Assembly: GCF_024298845.1 (NCBI RefSeq)
Contig: NZ_CP101156.1
Location: 1,984,001-2,048,000 of the forward strand
Direction of reading: 5' to 3'
Source: Natronosalvus amylolyticus
Lineage (GTDB): Archaea; Halobacteriota; Halobacteria; Halobacteriales; Natrialbaceae
Length of the DNA: 64,000 nt
Of the stretch, positions 1,061 through 29,472 are shown one piece after another. The notes under the pieces were generated by a model. It was not told the DNA's origin, searched no databases, and saw only the letters and a program-made list of their open reading frames with translations. Within the stretch, counting starts at the first letter, position 1, and each line of letters opens with the position of its first letter. Position numbers and translations under genes: made by a program.

Positions 1061-1133
1061 CGCCGAAGCCAGGACTCGAACCTGGGACCGCCTCGTTAAC
1101 AGCGAGGTGCTCTACCAACTGAGCTACTTCGGC
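1061..1133 (-). tRNA. tRNA-Asn (anticodon GTT)
   Basis: On the minus strand a full cloverleaf reads out: acceptor GCCGAAG/CTTCGGC, D arm GCTC...GAGC, anticodon stem CCTCG/CGAGG with loop CTGTTAA (anticodon GTT), and T arm with GGTTCGAGTCC. The discriminator base is G. There is no intron, and CCA is not encoded, as is usual in haloarchaea; the CCA-adding enzyme happens to be the next gene. Confidence 0.97.
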
Positions 1134-1248
1134 TCATCTCCTCGTTGTCGGGTTGATTTGATAGGGCTTTCGTTTTTGCCCTCATGCTGTCATCGGTTCA
1201 CAGGCTGTGTCGACAGCCTTTCTATCACCCCTCGAGTACCATACGGAT

Positions 1249-2634
1249 ATGACCGAGGAGGGTGCCGACGAACCGGCCGAAGCCATGTCGTTCGAGGCCG
1301 TCACGGAGGCGATACGACGGGAGAGTACGCCTGATGCAACCGAACGCCAGCGTCTCGAGGAGGTGGCAACCACCCTCCGTGCACGAGCGACGGCTGCCGT
1401 CACCGAACGTATCCCCGACGCCGACGTCGTGCAGGTCGGCTCCACCGCCCGCAACACCTGGGTCAGTGGCGACCGAGACATCGACATCTTCGTTCGGTTT
1501 CCACCCGAAACCGACCGCGACACCCTCGAGCGCGTCGGCCTCGAGGTCGGCCACGAAACGCTCCCCTCGGGCCACGAGGAGTACGCCGAACACCCGTACG
1601 TCAAAGGCACCTACGACGGCTTCGACATCGACATTGTCCCCTGCTTTCGACTCGAGCGAGCGAGCGATATCCGCTCGGCCGTCGACCGCACACCGTTTCA
1701 CAACCGCTACCTCGATCGCCGACTGGACGAGACCCTGGCCGACGACAGCCGCGTCACCAAACAGTTCTTGAAAGGAATCGGCGTCTACGGCTCCAACCTC
1801 CGGACTGCGGGCTTTAGCGGGTATCTGACCGAACTGCTCGTCCTCGAATACGGCGGCTTCCGGCCGCTACTCGAGGCCGCCGCCGACTGGCACCCGCCGG
1901 TCGAACTCGACCCCGAAGATCACGGGTCGGTCAGCTTCGATGACCCACTGATCGTCATCGACCCAACAGACCCCACGCGAAACGTCGCTGCCGTCTGCTC
2001 ACCGGCGAATGTCGCCCGCTTGCAGCACTACGCACGAGCGCTCCTCTCCGAGCCAGCACTCGAGTACTTCAGACCTGCCGACCCCGACCCACTCGAGCCC
2101 GCCGAACTGGAAACGCACCTCGAGCGGCGGGGGGCAACGTCGCTCGCGATCAGGTTCGACATCCCCGACCTGGTCGATGATCAGCTGTATCCACAACTGC
2201 ACAAGTCCCTCGATGGAATCGCTCGTGCCCTCGACACCAGGGGCTTCGACGTCCTCCGCAAGACGACGATGGCAGCCGATACCGCCGTCTTGCTGTTCGA
2301 CGTCGGCGTTCGAACGCGGCCGAAAATCGAACGACACGAGGGACCACCTGTTCACATCCGAGACCACGCCGAAGGGTTTTTCGCCGCCTACGTCGACGAC
2401 GACAGCGTCTACGGGCCGTTCATCGATGGCGACCGATACGTGGTCGAGCGGGAGCGTACGTGTACCAGCGCGCTCGAGTTCCTCGAGAGCCCAAGCCTCT
2501 TCGACGTCAGCCTCGGTACGCACGTCGAAACGGCGCTCGAAGACGGCTACACGGTGCTCGTCGACGACGAACTGAGCGACCTGCTCGAAGACTTCGGTCC
2601 GGCGCTTCGGCGCTATTTCGAGCCGAGCCCGTAG
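1249..2634 (+). CDS. cca: CCA-adding enzyme (archaeal class I tRNA nucleotidyltransferase)
   Basis: Adds the 3' CCA to tRNAs using CTP and ATP. The 461-aa product shows the class I nucleotidyltransferase signature GSTARNTWVSGDRDIDIF with catalytic Asp77 and Asp79, and a third acidic cluster DGFDIDIVPCF near residue 130. The central domain (TKQFLKGIGVYG, GFSGYLTELL) and the C-terminal tail fit the archaeal form in order and length. ATG at 1249 is preferred. An in-frame ATG at 1207 would add 14 residues with no family resemblance, and a third at 1285 would trim the variable N-terminus. Confidence 0.93.
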   Translation: MTEEGADEPAEAMSFEAVTEAIRRESTPDATERQRLEEVATTLRARATAAVTERIPDADVVQVGSTARNTWVSGDRDIDIFVRFPPETDRDTLERVGLEVGHETLPSGHEEYAEHPYVKGTYDGFDIDIVPCFRLERASDIRSAVDRTPFHNRYLDRRLDETLADDSRVTKQFLKGIGVYGSNLRTAGFSGYLTELLVLEYGGFRPLLEAAADWHPPVELDPEDHGSVSFDDPLIVIDPTDPTRNVAAVCSPANVARLQHYARALLSEPALEYFRPADPDPLEPAELETHLERRGATSLAIRFDIPDLVDDQLYPQLHKSLDGIARALDTRGFDVLRKTTMAADTAVLLFDVGVRTRPKIERHEGPPVHIRDHAEGFFAAYVDDDSVYGPFIDGDRYVVERERTCTSALEFLESPSLFDVSLGTHVETALEDGYTVLVDDELSDLLEDFGPALRRYFEPSP

Positions 2635-2715: not shown

Positions 2716-3375
2716 CTACTCGTGAGCGTCCCCGATAACACCCTCGGCCAGCGCGACGATATTGTCACTCTCGACGTCCTCGAGATCTTCGGGATAGACG
2801 CCGACGGTAAAGAGAAGATCGTCCTCGGTTTCGACGGCGGTGGTCACGTGCATGAGCACGTCGAGTTCGGTGCCGTCGAAGTCAGCCTGCGTACTGTATC
2901 GTGACATCGTCGTCGTCTCTCCGAAGACGGTGACCTCCTCCTCACCGACCGGCCTCGGGTCGCCGATATCGTCGTAATTGTCTGCAACGAGGTCGACCAG
3001 CTCTCGAGTCGACATCTCTCCGACAGGGTTGAGCTCACGACCGAGCACCGATACCTGCGGCGTCGTCAATACCACGAAGGTGGCCGCCCGCTGGCTTCCC
3101 ACTCCGGGAATCTCGACTTCCTTGTCGTGTTCGGTCATGTGGTTTGTCACACTGACCGATTCGCTGAAGAGGACGGCGTCGAACTCCTCCTGAATACTGA
3201 GCGGTTCGACTCCGGTCTGGTCGTACCCGGTATCGTCGAGCACCGACCGGTCGACCCCGGCCGGCTTCGATTCGTGTTCGTCGAGTCCAGCCAGGCCCAG
3301 ACAGCCAGACAGACCCGCGAGGCCGACGACACCGGTGCTAGCGAGAACGGCTCTTCGGTTCATTACCGGTTTCAT
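2716..3375 (-). CDS. Tat lipoprotein, probable DUF6517-type haloarchaeal protein
   Basis: 219 aa beginning with RR near residue 7, a hydrophobic stretch and a lipobox LAGLSGC (Cys at about 25), so it is likely Tat-exported, lipid-anchored and facing outward. The mature part has no catalytic motif I know; its layout resembles the haloarchaeal lipoprotein family I remember as DUF6517 (moderate recall only). It is monocistronic: the plus-strand cca gene converges on it from the left. The start could also be the ATG four codons inside (3363). Confidence 0.7.
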   Translation of the reverse strand: MKPVMNRRAVLASTGVVGLAGLSGCLGLAGLDEHESKPAGVDRSVLDDTGYDQTGVEPLSIQEEFDAVLFSESVSVTNHMTEHDKEVEIPGVGSQRAATFVVLTTPQVSVLGRELNPVGEMSTRELVDLVADNYDDIGDPRPVGEEEVTVFGETTTMSRYSTQADFDGTELDVLMHVTTAVETEDDLLFTVGVYPEDLEDVESDNIVALAEGVIGDAHE

Positions 3376-3512: not shown

Positions 3513-4526
3513 TCACTCGAGATCGTGAACCGCCAGAACTTCCTCGAGCAGCTCGGTCACCTTCTCGTCGACCTCGTCGTCCGGCCCAAGCGGGTCGCGC
3601 CCATCGAACGTCTCGTGGACCAGCGCGACGCACTCTGCGAGCACCTCGAGTCCGTATCCTCCCTCGAGGACGAAGGCGAGTCCGGCATCGACTGACGTGG
3701 TGAGCGACCTGATTCGGTCGGTCAACAGCGCGTAGGCTTCCGACGTGAGTCGGATCCGCGAAATCGGGTCGTGACGATGGGCGTCGAAGCCGGCACTGAC
3801 CAACACGAGGTCCGGGTTGTAGTCCTCGAGTGCGGGCACGATTGCGCGTTCGAACGCCGCGACGTAGCCGCTATCGGCCGCACCCGCCGGCATCGGGACG
3901 TTCATCGTCGTACCCTCGCCATCGCCAGCGCCGGTTTCTTCGACCGCACCCGTCCCGGGATACAGCCCCGCTTCGTGGACCGAAACCACGAACACGTCCT
4001 CGCGGTCGTAAAAGATGTCCTGGGTGCCGTTGCCGTGATGGACATCCCAATCAACGATGGCGACGCGGTCGACGTCGTAGGCGTCCGCATCGAGCGCCCA
4101 CTGGGCCGCAACCGCGACGTTGTTCACGAAGCAAAAGCCCATCGCGTCGTCGTAGATGGCGTGATGGCCCGGTGGCCGTCCGATCGAGAACGGCGTTTCG
4201 CGACCGTCATCGCCGTCGAGCGCTCGGTCCGCCGCCCAGCAGGCGAGTCCCGCACTCATCCGAACAGCATCCCAGGTTTCTTCGACCGCAGTCGTATCCG
4301 GGTCCCAGTTTCCGCCTCCATCCGCACAGAACTCCCGTACGTCCTCGAGATACGAGCGGTCGTGAACGCCCGAAATCGTCTCGAGCGACGCCGGATCGGC
4401 TTCGACGTATTCGACGCCGTGTTTCCGTTTGAGTCCCTCTCGAATCGCCCGCAACCGGTCCGGCGTCTCCGGGTGGCGCGGGCCAGGATCGTGTTCGAGA
4501 CAGGTGTTGCTATACCCAAAGCGCAT
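3513..4526 (-). CDS. Histone deacetylase family amidohydrolase (HDAC/AcuC-like)
   Basis: 337-aa arginase/deacetylase-fold zinc enzyme that removes acetyl groups from lysine or acetylated amines. Visible landmarks are GRPPGHHA with the charge-relay His121-His122, the zinc ligands Asp161 and His163 in DWDVHHGNGTQ, the third ligand Asp248 in SAGFDAH, and the transition-state Tyr291 in LEGGY. All active-site residues are present. It lies 3 bp downstream of the histone gene on the same strand, so the two are almost certainly co-transcribed, which favours protein lysine as substrate. Acetylpolyamine or acetoin-utilisation roles are the alternatives for this family. Confidence 0.92.
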   Translation of the reverse strand: MRFGYSNTCLEHDPGPRHPETPDRLRAIREGLKRKHGVEYVEADPASLETISGVHDRSYLEDVREFCADGGGNWDPDTTAVEETWDAVRMSAGLACWAADRALDGDDGRETPFSIGRPPGHHAIYDDAMGFCFVNNVAVAAQWALDADAYDVDRVAIVDWDVHHGNGTQDIFYDREDVFVVSVHEAGLYPGTGAVEETGAGDGEGTTMNVPMPAGAADSGYVAAFERAIVPALEDYNPDLVLVSAGFDAHRHDPISRIRLTSEAYALLTDRIRSLTTSVDAGLAFVLEGGYGLEVLAECVALVHETFDGRDPLGPDDEVDEKVTELLEEVLAVHDLE

Positions 4527-4529
4527 ACG

Positions 4530-4967
4530 TTATCGATGGTCGAAAAGCGCGAAGTAGGTCTCAATATCGTCCGCCGTGATCGTCCGACGGTCGGCGTGAC
4601 GCGCCAGTATCGCCGCAGCTCTGGCAACGTTATCGGCGTAATCCTCGAGGATGTCTGCGAGGGCGATCCGCGCATCCATCGACACGCGATAGTGATCTTC
4701 GATATCGATCCGTGCAATGCGGTCGACCGGGGCGACCGGTAACTCGAGAGCGTCAGCGTCGACGACGGTTTCGACCTCGAAATCACTCGCCATCAACGTC
4801 TTCCGGCCGTCTGCCGTCGCCCGCTCGGCCGCACCCACGGCCAATCGCGCACCGTGACGTTGGATCTCCTTTGCGAGTTCTTCGGCCGCCCCAGCACTCA
4901 CCCGAAGGTCCCCCGCGTTTCGCCGGATGATCGTGTCCACCGGAGCGAACGGGAGTTCGACGTTCAT
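4530..4967 (-). CDS. Fused double-histone-fold archaeal histone
   Basis: 145-aa protein with two histone folds in tandem, as in haloarchaeal histones. The first covers about residues 1-66 (LPFAPVDTIIRRN then VSAGAAEELAKEI) and the second about 75-145 (LPVAPVDRIARID then VSMDARIALADIL, TITADDIETYF). It should form a pseudo-dimer that wraps or bridges DNA. Both copies keep the conserved PVD opening. It is the upstream member of a two-gene unit with the deacetylase-family gene. The second fold is strongly acidic, which fits a high-salt cytoplasm. Confidence 0.95.
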   Translation of the reverse strand: MNVELPFAPVDTIIRRNAGDLRVSAGAAEELAKEIQRHGARLAVGAAERATADGRKTLMASDFEVETVVDADALELPVAPVDRIARIDIEDHYRVSMDARIALADILEDYADNVARAAAILARHADRRTITADDIETYFALFDHR

Positions 4968-5014
4968 ACACAGATAGCCGGAGTAAACCTTCTTAACGCT
5001 TTTCGTACAGGCGA

Positions 5015-5034
5015 CAGTTCGAACGGTCGAACTG
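5015..5034. repeat. Perfect 8-4-8 inverted repeat upstream of histone gene
   Basis: CAGTTCGA-ACGG-TCGAACTG lies about 50 bp before the histone start, between it and the right end of the IS element. It could be an operator for the histone-deacetylase unit or a remnant of the IS target. It has no T-run, so a terminator is less likely. Confidence 0.5.
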
Positions 5035-5048
5035 CGTTCGGATGCTTC

Positions 5049-5123
5049 TTGACCTCCTCCCGCGCCTAAAGTCGCGGGAATCCCACCATAGGGTTTCAGG
5101 CCGAGCGATTCGAACCTAAGGTT
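5049..5123 (-). ncRNA. Right end of IS with hairpin; probable 3' part of TnpB guide (omega/re) RNA
   Basis: The segment between the tnpB stop and the IS end carries TCCCGCG-N8-CGCGGGA (5058-5079). In characterised IS200/605 elements the guide RNA for TnpB starts inside the 3' end of tnpB and ends at this boundary, with the guide copied from the flank (here minus strand below 5049). No transcript evidence is available, so the RNA call is family-based inference. Confidence 0.45.
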
Positions 5124-6359
5124 TCAAGACGCATACGATCCAAGCGTCAATTGCTGGGCTTCAGCATCGGCTTGGCTGTCTTGTGGGCCGGTCAAACGGC
5201 CCCCTTCCTCAGCCGAGTCATCGCCACTCGTGTCTTCTCTTGAATGGCTCTCTCCGCTGAGGTAGCGGTCTGCAATATTGAGCGCGGCGTTGATGTCCGC
5301 GTGGTACTCCGAAACCCAACACGCCGAGTTGGAACACGTGAACGTCGCTTGATCGGGGCGGTAGCCCTGTTCTCCGCAACAGTGGCACGCCTTTGAGGTG
5401 TAGGCGGGATTCACCGTCTCCACGCGAATCCCTTTCTCGGCGGCTTTGTAGCGGAGTTGGGCGTGCATCTTCGCAAAGCCCCATCCGTGCAACCGACGGT
5501 TCATGAACGCGCCGTAGTCCATGTTCTCGCGGATATGCGTCAAGTCTTCCAGAACCAACACAGGGTTGTCGAATTGGTCTGCGTAGGCGACGACCTCCGA
5601 CGTGACCGTGTGGAGAATGTCGCCTATCTGTCGCCAGAGTGAATCGCCGTAGGATTCGGCGATACGTTCGCTTCCGCGTTGTTGAAGGCGTCGAGTCGCC
5701 GTGAAATACGTCTCACGGAGCTGTCGTACTCGCTTCCCTTCGTCGTTCCAAAGGTTGGATGTAGCCGGGGAGCCGCGCTCGTCACGGTGACACACCGTTA
5801 ACAAAGAGGCTTCCCCGATGTCTACCCCAATCGGCGTTTCGTCCGCCGAACTGGATCGTTCCTCCACGTCCCGTGTGGCGACGATGTGGAAGTACCACAC
5901 ACCATCGCGGTCGAACAGCCGACACTCGCCCATCTTTGCGTCCCCCGCGTGCAACGCTTCCAGCCACTCTCGCTGTTCGGGATTCGGTTGGGCAGGCAAC
6001 CAGAGATGGTAGTCGTTGTGATGCGGGATTTTGACGTACCACTCGATTGCGTTCTGTGGCTTGTGGTCGAGCTTCGGGCCTTCGTTCGTGAACCGAACAG
6101 GGTGGTCGTCGCGAAGCTCTTTGGCGTCGTAGCTTCCCCCGCACAATTGTGGAACGTACTTCTTGAGCGCGTTCTTCGCGTAACCGCTCAGGTCGTAGTT
6201 GACCACCACGTCGTTCGCTTCGGTCTGAGTGGTGCAGTTTGCGTTGAACGCGGCTTCGAGGGCGTCTTGATACGCTCGTTTTGTCTCGCAGAGCTTCCGG
6301 TGCTTGTGAGTGTTCGGTTCCACAAGCTTAAGTTCCAGCGTCTCGGTGAGTTCGGTCAC
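5124..6359 (-). CDS. tnpB: TnpB RNA-guided nuclease of IS605-type element
   Basis: 411 aa from a GTG that overlaps the tnpA stop (GTGA); an upstream in-frame ATG inside tnpA is unlikely to be used. The RuvC-like nuclease triad is intact: Asp180 in PIGVDIG, Glu271 in VLVLEDL and Asp355 in YHADINAALNIADRY. Between them is a zinc finger with Cys325, Cys328, Cys342 and Cys347; the second pair is spaced C-X4-C rather than C-X2-C. Family members cut DNA matched to an RNA guide and help retain the transposon after excision. The C-terminal ~40 residues are acidic and polar. It looks functional rather than decayed. Confidence 0.93.
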   Translation of the reverse strand: MTELTETLELKLVEPNTHKHRKLCETKRAYQDALEAAFNANCTTQTEANDVVVNYDLSGYAKNALKKYVPQLCGGSYDAKELRDDHPVRFTNEGPKLDHKPQNAIEWYVKIPHHNDYHLWLPAQPNPEQREWLEALHAGDAKMGECRLFDRDGVWYFHIVATRDVEERSSSADETPIGVDIGEASLLTVCHRDERGSPATSNLWNDEGKRVRQLRETYFTATRRLQQRGSERIAESYGDSLWRQIGDILHTVTSEVVAYADQFDNPVLVLEDLTHIRENMDYGAFMNRRLHGWGFAKMHAQLRYKAAEKGIRVETVNPAYTSKACHCCGEQGYRPDQATFTCSNSACWVSEYHADINAALNIADRYLSGESHSREDTSGDDSAEEGGRLTGPQDSQADAEAQQLTLGSYAS

Positions 6360-6745
6360 TGTTCGTCCTCCTCGTGACGCTGGATGTAGCCTTGAACCGT
6401 TTCGCTTGAGACGTGTCCTGCTGTTCCGGCGTAGTAGCCGCGCGCCCACTTGATTTTCTCACCGTCGTGGTCGGCGTAGCGGTGGTTGTATTTCCGCGAA
6501 CTGATCCCTTTGAACCAGTTAGCGAGAAGTGACGGGGCGTGTTTCGGTGGACTACTCACGAACAGGTGAACGTGATCGGATTGGACGGTGAGGTCGACAA
6601 TCTCCAATCCTTTTTCGTCGGCGATTTCGTGGAGGATTCGACGCACACGGTCTTCTACCTCGTTAACCAGCACCGAGTTGCGGTACTTCGGCAACCACAC
6701 TATGTGGTATTTGAGGTTGTAGGTCGCGTGTCGTGTGGTCTTCAT
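6356..6745 (-). CDS. tnpA: IS200/IS605 Y1-type HUH transposase TnpA
   Basis: 129 aa, the normal length for this family. It has the HUH metal-binding motif His58-Val-His60 in QSDHVHLFVS and the catalytic Tyr120 in ETVQGYIQRH. It cuts and joins single-stranded transposon ends as a dimer, recognising the terminal hairpins. Upstream of the ATG is the left end. The gene appears intact and is translationally coupled to tnpB. Confidence 0.96.
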   Translation of the reverse strand: MKTTRHATYNLKYHIVWLPKYRNSVLVNEVEDRVRRILHEIADEKGLEIVDLTVQSDHVHLFVSSPPKHAPSLLANWFKGISSRKYNHRYADHDGEKIKWARGYYAGTAGHVSSETVQGYIQRHEEDEQ

Positions 6746-6830
6746 CCGTACTACACACTATGGTGGACAACGGTCTTCAAACTACCGAGTTACGTGGGGA
6801 ATCCAACTGTTCGTAGCAACGTGAGCCGGA

Positions 6831-6888
6831 CGCACTATGCCTACCGCTCGACCCGCGCCTGAAGACGCGGGTATGCGCTCGCACTATG
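6831..6888 (-). repeat. Left-end hairpin and direct repeat of the IS element
   Basis: The hairpin ACCCGCG-N8-CGCGGGT (6851-6872) is bracketed by two copies of CGCACTATG. Stem and loop closely resemble the right-end hairpin at 5058-5079, as expected for TnpA recognition structures. Confidence 0.7.
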
Positions 6889-6931
6889 TATCAGCGGTCA
6901 CAAAAACGATCGTAGGCAGTGAAACGATTTA

Positions 6932-6967
6932 CACACCTATCACGACGGCGTCTGGCGATAGGGTGTG
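6932..6967 (-). terminator. Hairpin after the RPA gene
   Basis: CACACCTATC and GATAGGGTGTG (one bulged G) can form a 10-bp stem with a ~15-nt loop. It lies 23 nt past the RPA stop, and on the minus strand it is followed by a short A/T-rich stretch (TAAATCG). A terminator is the simplest reading. Confidence 0.5.
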
Positions 6968-6989
6968 CACTGGCTACTTTACCCCCCGG

Positions 6990-8429
6990 TCAGAACACGT
7001 CGTCAGCCTCGAGGCGGCCGTCACGAATCTGCCCTCGGGCGGTCACTTCCTCGCCGAGGCCAACGTCAGCGCTCGTCTCGACGCTCATCGTCTCCTCGCC
7101 GTTGTCCAGAACGACGGGGTCACCCGCCTGGACGACGACACCGGTAAATTCGACGGATTCGCCGTCGGACGGCCCCGTCGGCTCCGCTTTGTCCGCAGCG
7201 GATTCGGTGTCGACAGCTTCGGAATCTGTCGATTCGCCACCGCCGGCGTCGGCGTCGGCGAACGCCGAGAGGCCGGTGTCCGAACTGCCAGCAGCGTCCT
7301 CGTCGCCAACCGACCCGGCACCGTCCGCTCCACCGAGAACCGTCACCGTCGACCGCCAGCCGGCTGAGGCCTCGAGGTCGTCCTGCCAGCCGTCTTTGAT
7401 CTCGACGTCGGCGAACGCAACCTCGTCGCCCGGCCCCAGGTCGATGTCCGCCTTTTCGCCCCACATCGCCACGCGAATGTCGCCCGTTGCATCCTGGACG
7501 CGAACGTTTCTGACCTGCCCCTCCGAGCCATCGTCCCTGTCGAAGGTGCGTTTCGGGTCCGCCGAGCGGACCACACCGGCGATATCCGTCGTCTCACCCA
7601 GCTCGAGCGATTCGATGGCCGTGCTTTCGGGGACGTACTCGACGTCCTCGTCGACGGCTTCGACGGCACCGCGATTGCCGACGTGCAACTCCAGGGAGCC
7701 GTCCCGGTCACGAACGTAGCCGTCGACGACCTCGACCGTGTCGCCTGCCTCGAACTCGTCGACGACGTCAGCCTGGTCGTCCCAGAGGGTGACCCGCACG
7801 CGGCCGGTGGAGTCCCCCAGGGTGATGTTCGCCACTCGCCCTTCGGAGCCGTCGTCCCGGTCGAACGTTCGGATCGAGCCGGTGTCGAGCACCACCCCAA
7901 CGAGGTTCACGTCCGAGAGGCCGAGTGAGAGCGATTCGACCGTATGCGTGTCCGTCAGCTGGACGTCGATTTCGGTATCGTCATCCGGCTCCACATCGTC
8001 GACGCTGATTTCGACGCCGCTAAAGCCCTCTTTTGGCCGGCCCTTGATTTTGAGTACCTGCCCTTCCTCGAGTTCGTCAACGGCTGCCTGGGCGTGTTCG
8101 TCCCAGAAGGCAGCCCGTACGCTGCCAGTTTCGTCGGCGACTTCAACGTTGACGACCCGGCCATCTTCGTCCTCGCCGTCGCGTTCGAAGGTGCGGAGTT
8201 CGCCGATTTTCAGGACTTTCGCGACGAACTTCGCTTCCTCCATCCCCGGTTCGATGTCGGCAACGCCGTTGACCTCGCTCTCGCCGAGTTCGTGGGCGAT
8301 GAGCATCGCCGCCGTCTCCTCGTCGGCGAGACCGCCCATCTGCTCGACTTTGGCCTCGACAGCCTCCCGAAACTCCTCGAGGGAGACGTCAGCCTCGAGG
8401 TCCTCATAAATCCCCTCGATGTCACTCAT
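6990..8429 (-). CDS. Replication protein A, four-OB-fold ssDNA-binding protein (RPA2-like)
   Basis: 479 aa from ATG at 8429; the longer frame to 8465 adds residues unlike the family. After an N-terminal helical segment starting MSDIEGIYEDLE, three OB folds repeat a near-identical core: RTFDRDDGSEG followed by a strand and a TG-x2-RV-x3-W element. A linker rich in Gly, Ser and Asp leads to a fourth, shorter OB fold at the C-terminus. It coats single-stranded DNA in replication and repair. No RPA-associated small gene follows it, unlike the RPA1/RPA3 operons of haloarchaea, so it matches the stand-alone RPA2 type. No C-terminal zinc finger is seen. Confidence 0.9.
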   Translation of the reverse strand: MSDIEGIYEDLEADVSLEEFREAVEAKVEQMGGLADEETAAMLIAHELGESEVNGVADIEPGMEEAKFVAKVLKIGELRTFERDGEDEDGRVVNVEVADETGSVRAAFWDEHAQAAVDELEEGQVLKIKGRPKEGFSGVEISVDDVEPDDDTEIDVQLTDTHTVESLSLGLSDVNLVGVVLDTGSIRTFDRDDGSEGRVANITLGDSTGRVRVTLWDDQADVVDEFEAGDTVEVVDGYVRDRDGSLELHVGNRGAVEAVDEDVEYVPESTAIESLELGETTDIAGVVRSADPKRTFDRDDGSEGQVRNVRVQDATGDIRVAMWGEKADIDLGPGDEVAFADVEIKDGWQDDLEASAGWRSTVTVLGGADGAGSVGDEDAAGSSDTGLSAFADADAGGGESTDSEAVDTESAADKAEPTGPSDGESVEFTGVVVQAGDPVVLDNGEETMSVETSADVGLGEEVTARGQIRDGRLEADDVF

Positions 8430-8530
8430 TCTATGCTCGTGCATGGGTAGCCCGCGCATAAGCATTGTCCATTTGGTGTGACCGTCGGTGCGTTCCCGGT
8501 TTCTCCATGCTGTCGCTGGAGTCGGGATGG

Positions 8531-9387: not shown

Positions 9388-9460
9388 GTCCTGGTAGGGT
9401 AGTGGACTATCCTCTTGGCTTGCGGAGCCAGGGACCGGAGTTCAAATCTCCGTCAGGACG
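9388..9460 (+). tRNA. tRNA-Arg (anticodon GCG)
   Basis: Cloverleaf: acceptor GTCCTGG/TCAGGAC (last pair G-T), anticodon stem TTGGC/GCCAG with loop TTGCGGA (anticodon GCG, reads CGC), T arm GGAG-TTCAAAT-CTCC, discriminator G. There is no intron and no encoded CCA. Its T-arm sequence is duplicated just downstream (see the repeat entry). Confidence 0.96.
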
Positions 9461-10183: not shown

Positions 10184-10314
10184 GACGGTTTTTGTCCTCT
10201 CTTCCCGGAGATTGCCGACCCGGTATGACAATCATCGGTAAAAAGGTACAGCGGACCGTATGAGACGACTGCTGTGGGCGGCGCTACAAGCGCGGCCGCT
10301 CTGAAGATAGTGTA

Positions 10315-10717
10315 GGTGAGAGGAGTAAGCCCCCTTCTGTTCATCCCGGCATTCGGCTAAGCATCCATCCCGCCCGCGAAAGCGGCGTTGTCGGGTTACC
10401 AACGGAATAGACTTGCACCGGTGAGGATTCGCCGTTCCATCGATCCTCGGTCGTCTAACGGCCAACTGGCCGACCCTCGGCGGGGTCTCCCCGTCCTTGC
10501 GGTTGGGTTCGCGCGCCTCATCGGTCGGACCGAGACGTGTCGTTTCTGTTCCAGAGCCAGCGGTCTCCCGCTCCGGGCTTGCACCCGGTCACCGACCCGA
10601 ACGGTGGGGGGACTTTCCTCGCGGGCGCGGCCGCCCCGATGGAGCGACCGCGTGTGGTAGTCGGGCCGTTTCCGACCCGACTATCGCGGCAGCCAGGCTC
10701 TCTCTCCCACTCACCGT
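10315..10717 (-). ncRNA. rnpB: RNase P RNA
   Basis: The catalytic RNA that trims tRNA 5' leaders. On the minus strand the universal block GAGGAAAGTCC (conserved region I) is at 10610-10620, an ACAGAAAC element follows at about 10540-10548, and the 3' block ACAGAAGGGGGCTTA (region V) is at 10326-10340; the two outer blocks form P4. The ends pair as P1 (GGTGAG near 10715 with CTCACC at 10315-10320). The length of ~400 nt fits archaeal type A RNAs. The exact ends are set from P1 and may be off by a few bases. Confidence 0.94.
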
Positions 10718-29163: not shown

Positions 29164-29472
29164 TCACTCGTCGAGGTGTTCGATACCCTTCTTCGAGACG
29201 TTCGCTTCGGTGATCTCGGAAGGCATCCAGTCCGGCTTGTCGTCAGGAGCTTCTTCTTCCCAGGCCCAGCCGTCGTAGATGTGGACTTTCTCCGTTCCTT
29301 TCTCTCGGAGTCGGAGTTCGACGCGGTCGGCCGCATCTTCGCTGGAGCCGGGGTCGAGTCGTCGAGCCGCTTTCAGTGCCGCCTGTCGAGGCGTGTTCCC
29401 GGAGAACACACTCGATTCGTCGCCGCCCGATTCGCGCAGTGCAAAGTTTCGCTTACCATCTTCACGTACCAT
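29164..29472 (-). CDS. MC1-family chromosomal protein
   Basis: 102 aa monomeric DNA-bending protein. The sequence RNFALRESGG, then TPRQAALKAARRL, RLREKGTEKVHIYDGW and DKPDWMPSEI follow the MC1 family closely. It has no histone fold and bends DNA sharply. ATG at 29472 is chosen; an upstream in-frame extension to 29574 does not match the family. Together with the double histone at 4530 the organism thus has both chromatin protein types. Confidence 0.93.
   Translation of the reverse strand: MVREDGKRNFALRESGGDESSVFSGNTPRQAALKAARRLDPGSSEDAADRVELRLREKGTEKVHIYDGWAWEEEAPDDKPDWMPSEITEANVSKKGIEHLDE

Follow-up and report, generated by a model that had tools for sequence, protein, structure and literature searches.

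The closest described system is the hstA (HVO_0520) - hdaI (HVO_0522) gene pair of Haloferax volcanii, which is described as overlapping and cotranscribed in a review of the work of Altman-Price and Mevarech from 2009 (PMC2946573). Both the operon and the idea that its deacetylase acts on the histone have been in print for this species since 2009/2010. The review reports that hdaI is essential, which is repeated in PMC6267482, and haloarchaeal histone acetylation was unproven as of the review. Some caution about essentiality is warranted because the other genetic claim of the 2009 study, synthetic lethality of pat2/elp3, was revised in 2025 (PMC12323606). Both hstA and hpyA are nonessential, the hstA deletion could be complemented in trans and hence is not polar, and HstA/HpyA histones are expressed at transcription-factor levels (PMC10128011). 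The haloarchaeal histone is regarded as a low-abundance, transcription-factor-like protein rather than as bulk chromatin (PMC10128011, PMC11894787). The Alba-Sir2/Pat system of Sulfolobus is alike in concept, as it also joins a chromatin protein with a lysine deacetylase. However, Sir2 depends on NAD and is not related to the zinc-dependent HDAC fold of HdaI, and control of Alba by acetylation has been demonstrated experimentally, whereas the histone-HdaI counterpart studied here offers a named candidate site (K56) only. HdaI shares its fold and catalytic set, at 29-34% identity, with bacterial class II HDAC-like hydrolases (Pseudomonas HDAH, Acinetobacter Kdac1, DmhA, PrpH) and HDAC6, which act on substrates from acetyl-lysine to pesticides and, unlike HdaI, are not encoded with a histone.

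We analyzed a window of 64 kb, meaning the whole stretch of DNA, from Natronosalvus amylolyticus. As shown in Table 1, it contains a Natronosalvus-type copy of the haloarchaeal hstA-hdaI operon, in which the histone gene is directly followed by hdaI on the same strand. Genes, order, families, and tight coupling are the same as in H. volcanii, although a gap replaces the overlap, an IS200/605 element lies upstream, and a DUF6517 gene lies between hdaI and cca. Among 80 named loci, that of the closest relative was the only other one with this DUF6517 gene. The RPA-histone-HDAC-cca order is also that of Haloferax profundi (locus L186). Cotranscription of the two genes is near certain judging from their spacing, because there is no room for an intergenic promoter, the gap is conserved throughout the class, and cotranscription of the pair has been reported in H. 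volcanii. A preliminary description of this DNA had given the coordinates, spacing, and shared direction of the two genes correctly, and its more cautious view that they are probably cotranscribed can be strengthened.

Table 1. Coordinates of the histone-deacetylase operon and of other features in the window
Feature	Position	Strand	Remarks
tRNA gene	1061-1133	-	Rfam
cca, archaeal CCA tRNA nucleotidyltransferase	1207..2634	+	convergent neighbor
DUF6517 lipoprotein	2716..3375	-	between hdaI and cca
HdaI, class II-like Zn-dependent lysine deacetylase (predicted)	3513..4526	-	337 aa; complete catalytic set
Intergenic gap histone/hdaI	4527..4529	-	3 bp; translational-coupling distance
Doublet histone gene (HstA/HpyA ortholog), acidic	4530..4967	-	145 aa; ORF call, profile search, alignment A1, lysine survey
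Putative promoter core CGAAAAGCGTTAAG, BRE/TATA-like	4992..5005	-	~25 nt upstream of histone ATG; leaderless type
Inverted repeat 8-4-8, CAGTTCGA-ACGG-TCGAACTG	5015..5034	.	not conserved, probably incidental
IS200/605 element	5047..6900 (approximate ends)	-	between RPA and histone promoter
IS200/605 subterminal hairpin	5058-5079	-	
IS200/605 TnpB	5124-6449	-	
IS200/605 TnpA	6356-6745	-	
IS200/605 subterminal hairpin	6851-6872	-	
RPA, single-stranded DNA-binding protein (NF005551)	6990..8465	-	usual upstream neighbor of histone
tRNA gene	9388-9460	+	Rfam
Archaeal RNase P RNA	10314-10708	-	Rfam
MC1	29170-29454	-	only copy in genome

Comparison of upstream sequences revealed that the core CGAAAAGCGTTAAG is conserved in relatives, consistent with a promoter role. 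The inverted repeat and the IS element noted in the preliminary description are both present, but neither appears relevant to the operon. We rejected the repeat as an operator because a relative with a 99% identical histone has only a degenerate version, others of the genus lack it, and it is one of three perfect 8-4-8 inverted repeats in the window. The IS200/605 element is a local insertion, incidental to the operon rather than part of it, as no TnpB was found in the loci of any of the 80 named relatives and the promoter core beside the insertion is intact. Its TnpB is of the RNA-guided type. As the right end of the element points toward the histone promoter, an outward TnpB guide RNA would match sequence just upstream of the histone. 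A diverged relative of a short MITE-like element adjoins the IS (6900-6989); in Natronosalvus hydrolyticus, this MITE-like element has inverted ends TATAGTAGCCATTGAAA...TTTCAATGGCTACTATA and lies just after RPA (L113:4676-4760). The coexistence of MC1 with the histone was also confirmed, and H. volcanii likewise has a doublet histone together with MC1, for which there was a match in the control set.

Both proteins could be placed in known families. Acidic doublet histones are defined by two fused histone folds, a length of ~143 aa, and acidity. The histone here has two PF00808 stretches, its AlphaFold model (mean pLDDT 95) contains two complete histone folds with the fused histone of Methanopyrus as best solved match, and its net charge is -10. 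Hence, it belongs to the haloarchaeal acidic doublet histones (HstA/HpyA; cluster 3 of PMC13260811), in agreement with the original double-fold call. The enzyme matched nearly the entire PF00850 profile (1-296/298) with an E-value of 1.6e-88 and 297 bits, relative to a cut-off of 27.9 bits, while an NCBIfam search matched no named model. A catalytic His pair, Asp-His-Asp zinc ligands, and catalytic Tyr are all present, and the set H121, H122, D159, D161, H163, D248, and Y291 was invariant in 32 aligned haloarchaeal homologs (alignment A2) as well as in 40 aligned HDACs of the phylum. This bears out the earlier assignment of a catalytically complete HDAC-family gene. The nearest solved folds to the predicted model (pLDDT 90) were bacterial class II HDAC-like hydrolases and HDAC6/7, with the small-amide hydrolases DmhA and PrpH also among them. 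Polyamine deacetylases of the HDAC10 type carry a Glu at the gatekeeper position. Alignments placed an invariant Ile255 there in HdaI, facing the Leu of HDAC6 CD2 or the Lys of CD1, which makes a polyamine role less likely, and we rejected identity as a polyamine deacetylase because this residue does not fit. Specificity for protein lysine is predicted rather than observed. In one genus (L038, L041; G339, G303), HdaI is longer (363-379 aa) and has additional residues around position 150, in the region that separates the catalytic His pair from the metal ligands.

To quantify conservation, we drew 391 genomes evenly from the class Halobacteria. Histone and HDAC were each found in 389 of them, and the same two genomes lacked both. 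These two (G309 and G389) also lack RPA and are represented by assemblies that are 82-88% complete, making an assembly gap likelier than true loss. We read 170 loci, comprising 90 sampled genomes of many genera and the 80 named loci, and the histone-HDAC spacing was -4 to +16 bp in 160 of them. This range covered 83 of the 90 genomes (one of them split over two contigs); among the other seven, one had 605 bp between the genes and six had no adjacent HDAC. In 77 of the 80 named loci the genes were -4 to +13 bp apart, and the remainder were separated by 31, 137, and 144 bp. The order RPA > histone > HDAC > < cca recurred throughout the named loci, of which the closest is Natronosalvus hydrolyticus with a 99% identical histone. 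In contrast, the distance between RPA and histone ranged from 50 to 1671 bp, implying that tight spacing is specific to the histone-HDAC pair. The proposed synteny check thus came out in favor of a conserved gene pair, although what had been called an unusual archaeal unit is the standard haloarchaeal arrangement.

The six exceptions (G001 and G007 of one genus, G021, G217, G285, and G382) keep the histone and have only a distant HDAC (~40% identity) elsewhere in the genome. The region in G007 reads RPA > histone > < cca, as though hdaI had been excised cleanly. The converse case, HdaI without the histone, was not found in any sampled genome. In G217, G285, and G021 (L208, L209, and L210) the histone adjoins neither RPA nor HDAC, and in the latter two a short ORF, UspA-family-like by sequence, lies directly upstream of the histone. 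The 605 bp that split the operon in G130 (L037) contain hairpin ends and a small ORF and resemble, by eye, an IS200/605-like remnant.

If HdaI acts on the histone, then the histone must offer lysines, and we therefore surveyed lysines across the class. The 156 distinct haloarchaeal histones are lysine-poor, with 396 Lys versus 2365 Arg. The sole invariant lysine was K56 (156/156), which lies in the R55-K56-T57 loop of fold 1 and is the only lysine of any kind in 36 of the 156. The corresponding loop of fold 2 is R127-R128-T129, and 155 of the 156 histones carry Arg there in the place of K56. RRT also occurs in this loop in some singlet histones from related lineages, which implies that the fold can accommodate Arg, although Arg never appears at this place in fold 1. 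In archaeal histones, the RKT loop is a site of DNA contact. In HMfB, the equivalent residue K53 pairs with E18 (PMC8775648). Our alignment places Tyr93 of fold 2 at the position of E18, so an equivalent salt bridge probably does not explain the conserved lysine. While the operon itself was already known, the result of this survey is new, and it makes K56 the only class-wide candidate acetylation site. We did not take invariance as proof of acetylation, however, because contact with DNA accounts for it and K56 is retained in the six genomes lacking adjacent hdaI. Any acetylation of K56 is hypothetical.

The reading that we favor takes in the observed gene pair, its conservation, the catalytic residues, and the lysine pattern. 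It is probable that HdaI is a broad lysine deacetylase with its essential target elsewhere and the histone as a possible extra substrate. One leaderless transcript would then yield both a doublet histone of low abundance with a gene-regulatory role and a class II lysine deacetylase that depends on zinc, and HdaI would most likely hydrolyze acetyl-lysine on several proteins of the cell. Since hdaI is reported to be essential and hstA is dispensable, the essential substrate is argued not to be the histone. The histone would be a plausible additional substrate, and K56 in its DNA-contact loop is the one site that all members of the class could have in common. Weighing against this reading are the small-amide hydrolases among the nearest folds, the revision of the other claim of the 2009 study, and the main texts of two H. 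volcanii acetylation papers, in which no acetylated histone is mentioned.

A possible, if doubtful, alternative is that the linkage is mainly inherited gene order, with HDAC descending from an old neighborhood with cca and histone whose proteins need not interact. Among sampled genomes of the phylum that lie outside Halobacteria, at least eight, belonging to four families, carried histone > ... HDAC > ... cca < on one contig (L193-L200), with the histone 0.8-4.5 kb from HDAC on the same strand and a convergent cca downstream. Two further families have HDAC > < cca without a histone nearby, and within Halobacteria RPA and cca are likewise conserved neighbors. The haloarchaeal HdaI proteins form one clade (support 100/100), although the deeper branches of the tree lack resolution. 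These observations are suggestive of a neighborhood that predates Halobacteria and may have been tightened into an operon there. However, inherited order does not readily account for a histone-HDAC spacing held at coupling distance while that of RPA and histone varies, a contrast that points to selection for co-expression in Halobacteria.

It is unlikely that HdaI is a dedicated histone deacetylase, the idea put forward in the preliminary description and in the 2009/2010 work. Acetylation of K56 would in this case loosen DNA binding, and HdaI, made from the same transcript, would take the acetyl group off again. Class-wide coupling of the two genes fits this proposal, as does a strict lysine at K56 when halophile histones favor Arg and fold 2 and some related singlets carry Arg at that place. 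There is also precedent in Thermococcales, for which acetylated histones have been reported (K35 of HTkB, as cited in PMC8775648). Nevertheless, a dedicated chromatin-modifying unit is not favored, as the reported essentiality of hdaI is at odds with dispensable histones, and six genomes keep both the histone and its K56 without adjacent HdaI. Furthermore, 37 columns of the alignment are invariant, K56 among them, such that DNA contact alone can explain its conservation. The status of haloarchaeal histone acetylation given in PMC2946573 also weighs against the proposal. A narrower form, in which K56 acts as a one-site switch that is reversibly acetylated and reset by HdaI from the same transcript, within a neighborhood older than Halobacteria, is rather improbable. 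We consider it less probable still that HdaI is an amidohydrolase of small molecules (acetylpolyamine or another amide) rather than a protein deacetylase, since, although dimethoate and propanil hydrolases and bacterial HDAH are among its closest solved structures, it has Ile in place of the polyamine-type Glu and its phmmer scores are lower to acetylpolyamine amidohydrolases than to HDAC6/HDAH.

Whether acetylation regulates haloarchaeal histones has been a question since the hstA-hdaI operon was described. With HdaI as a probable broad deacetylase and the histone as a possible extra substrate, the class-wide lysine survey narrows this question to a single residue, K56. The six genomes having a histone without adjacent hdaI provide natural controls. 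With a single candidate, one mutant together with one site followed by mass spectrometry would bring the matter most of the way to an answer.
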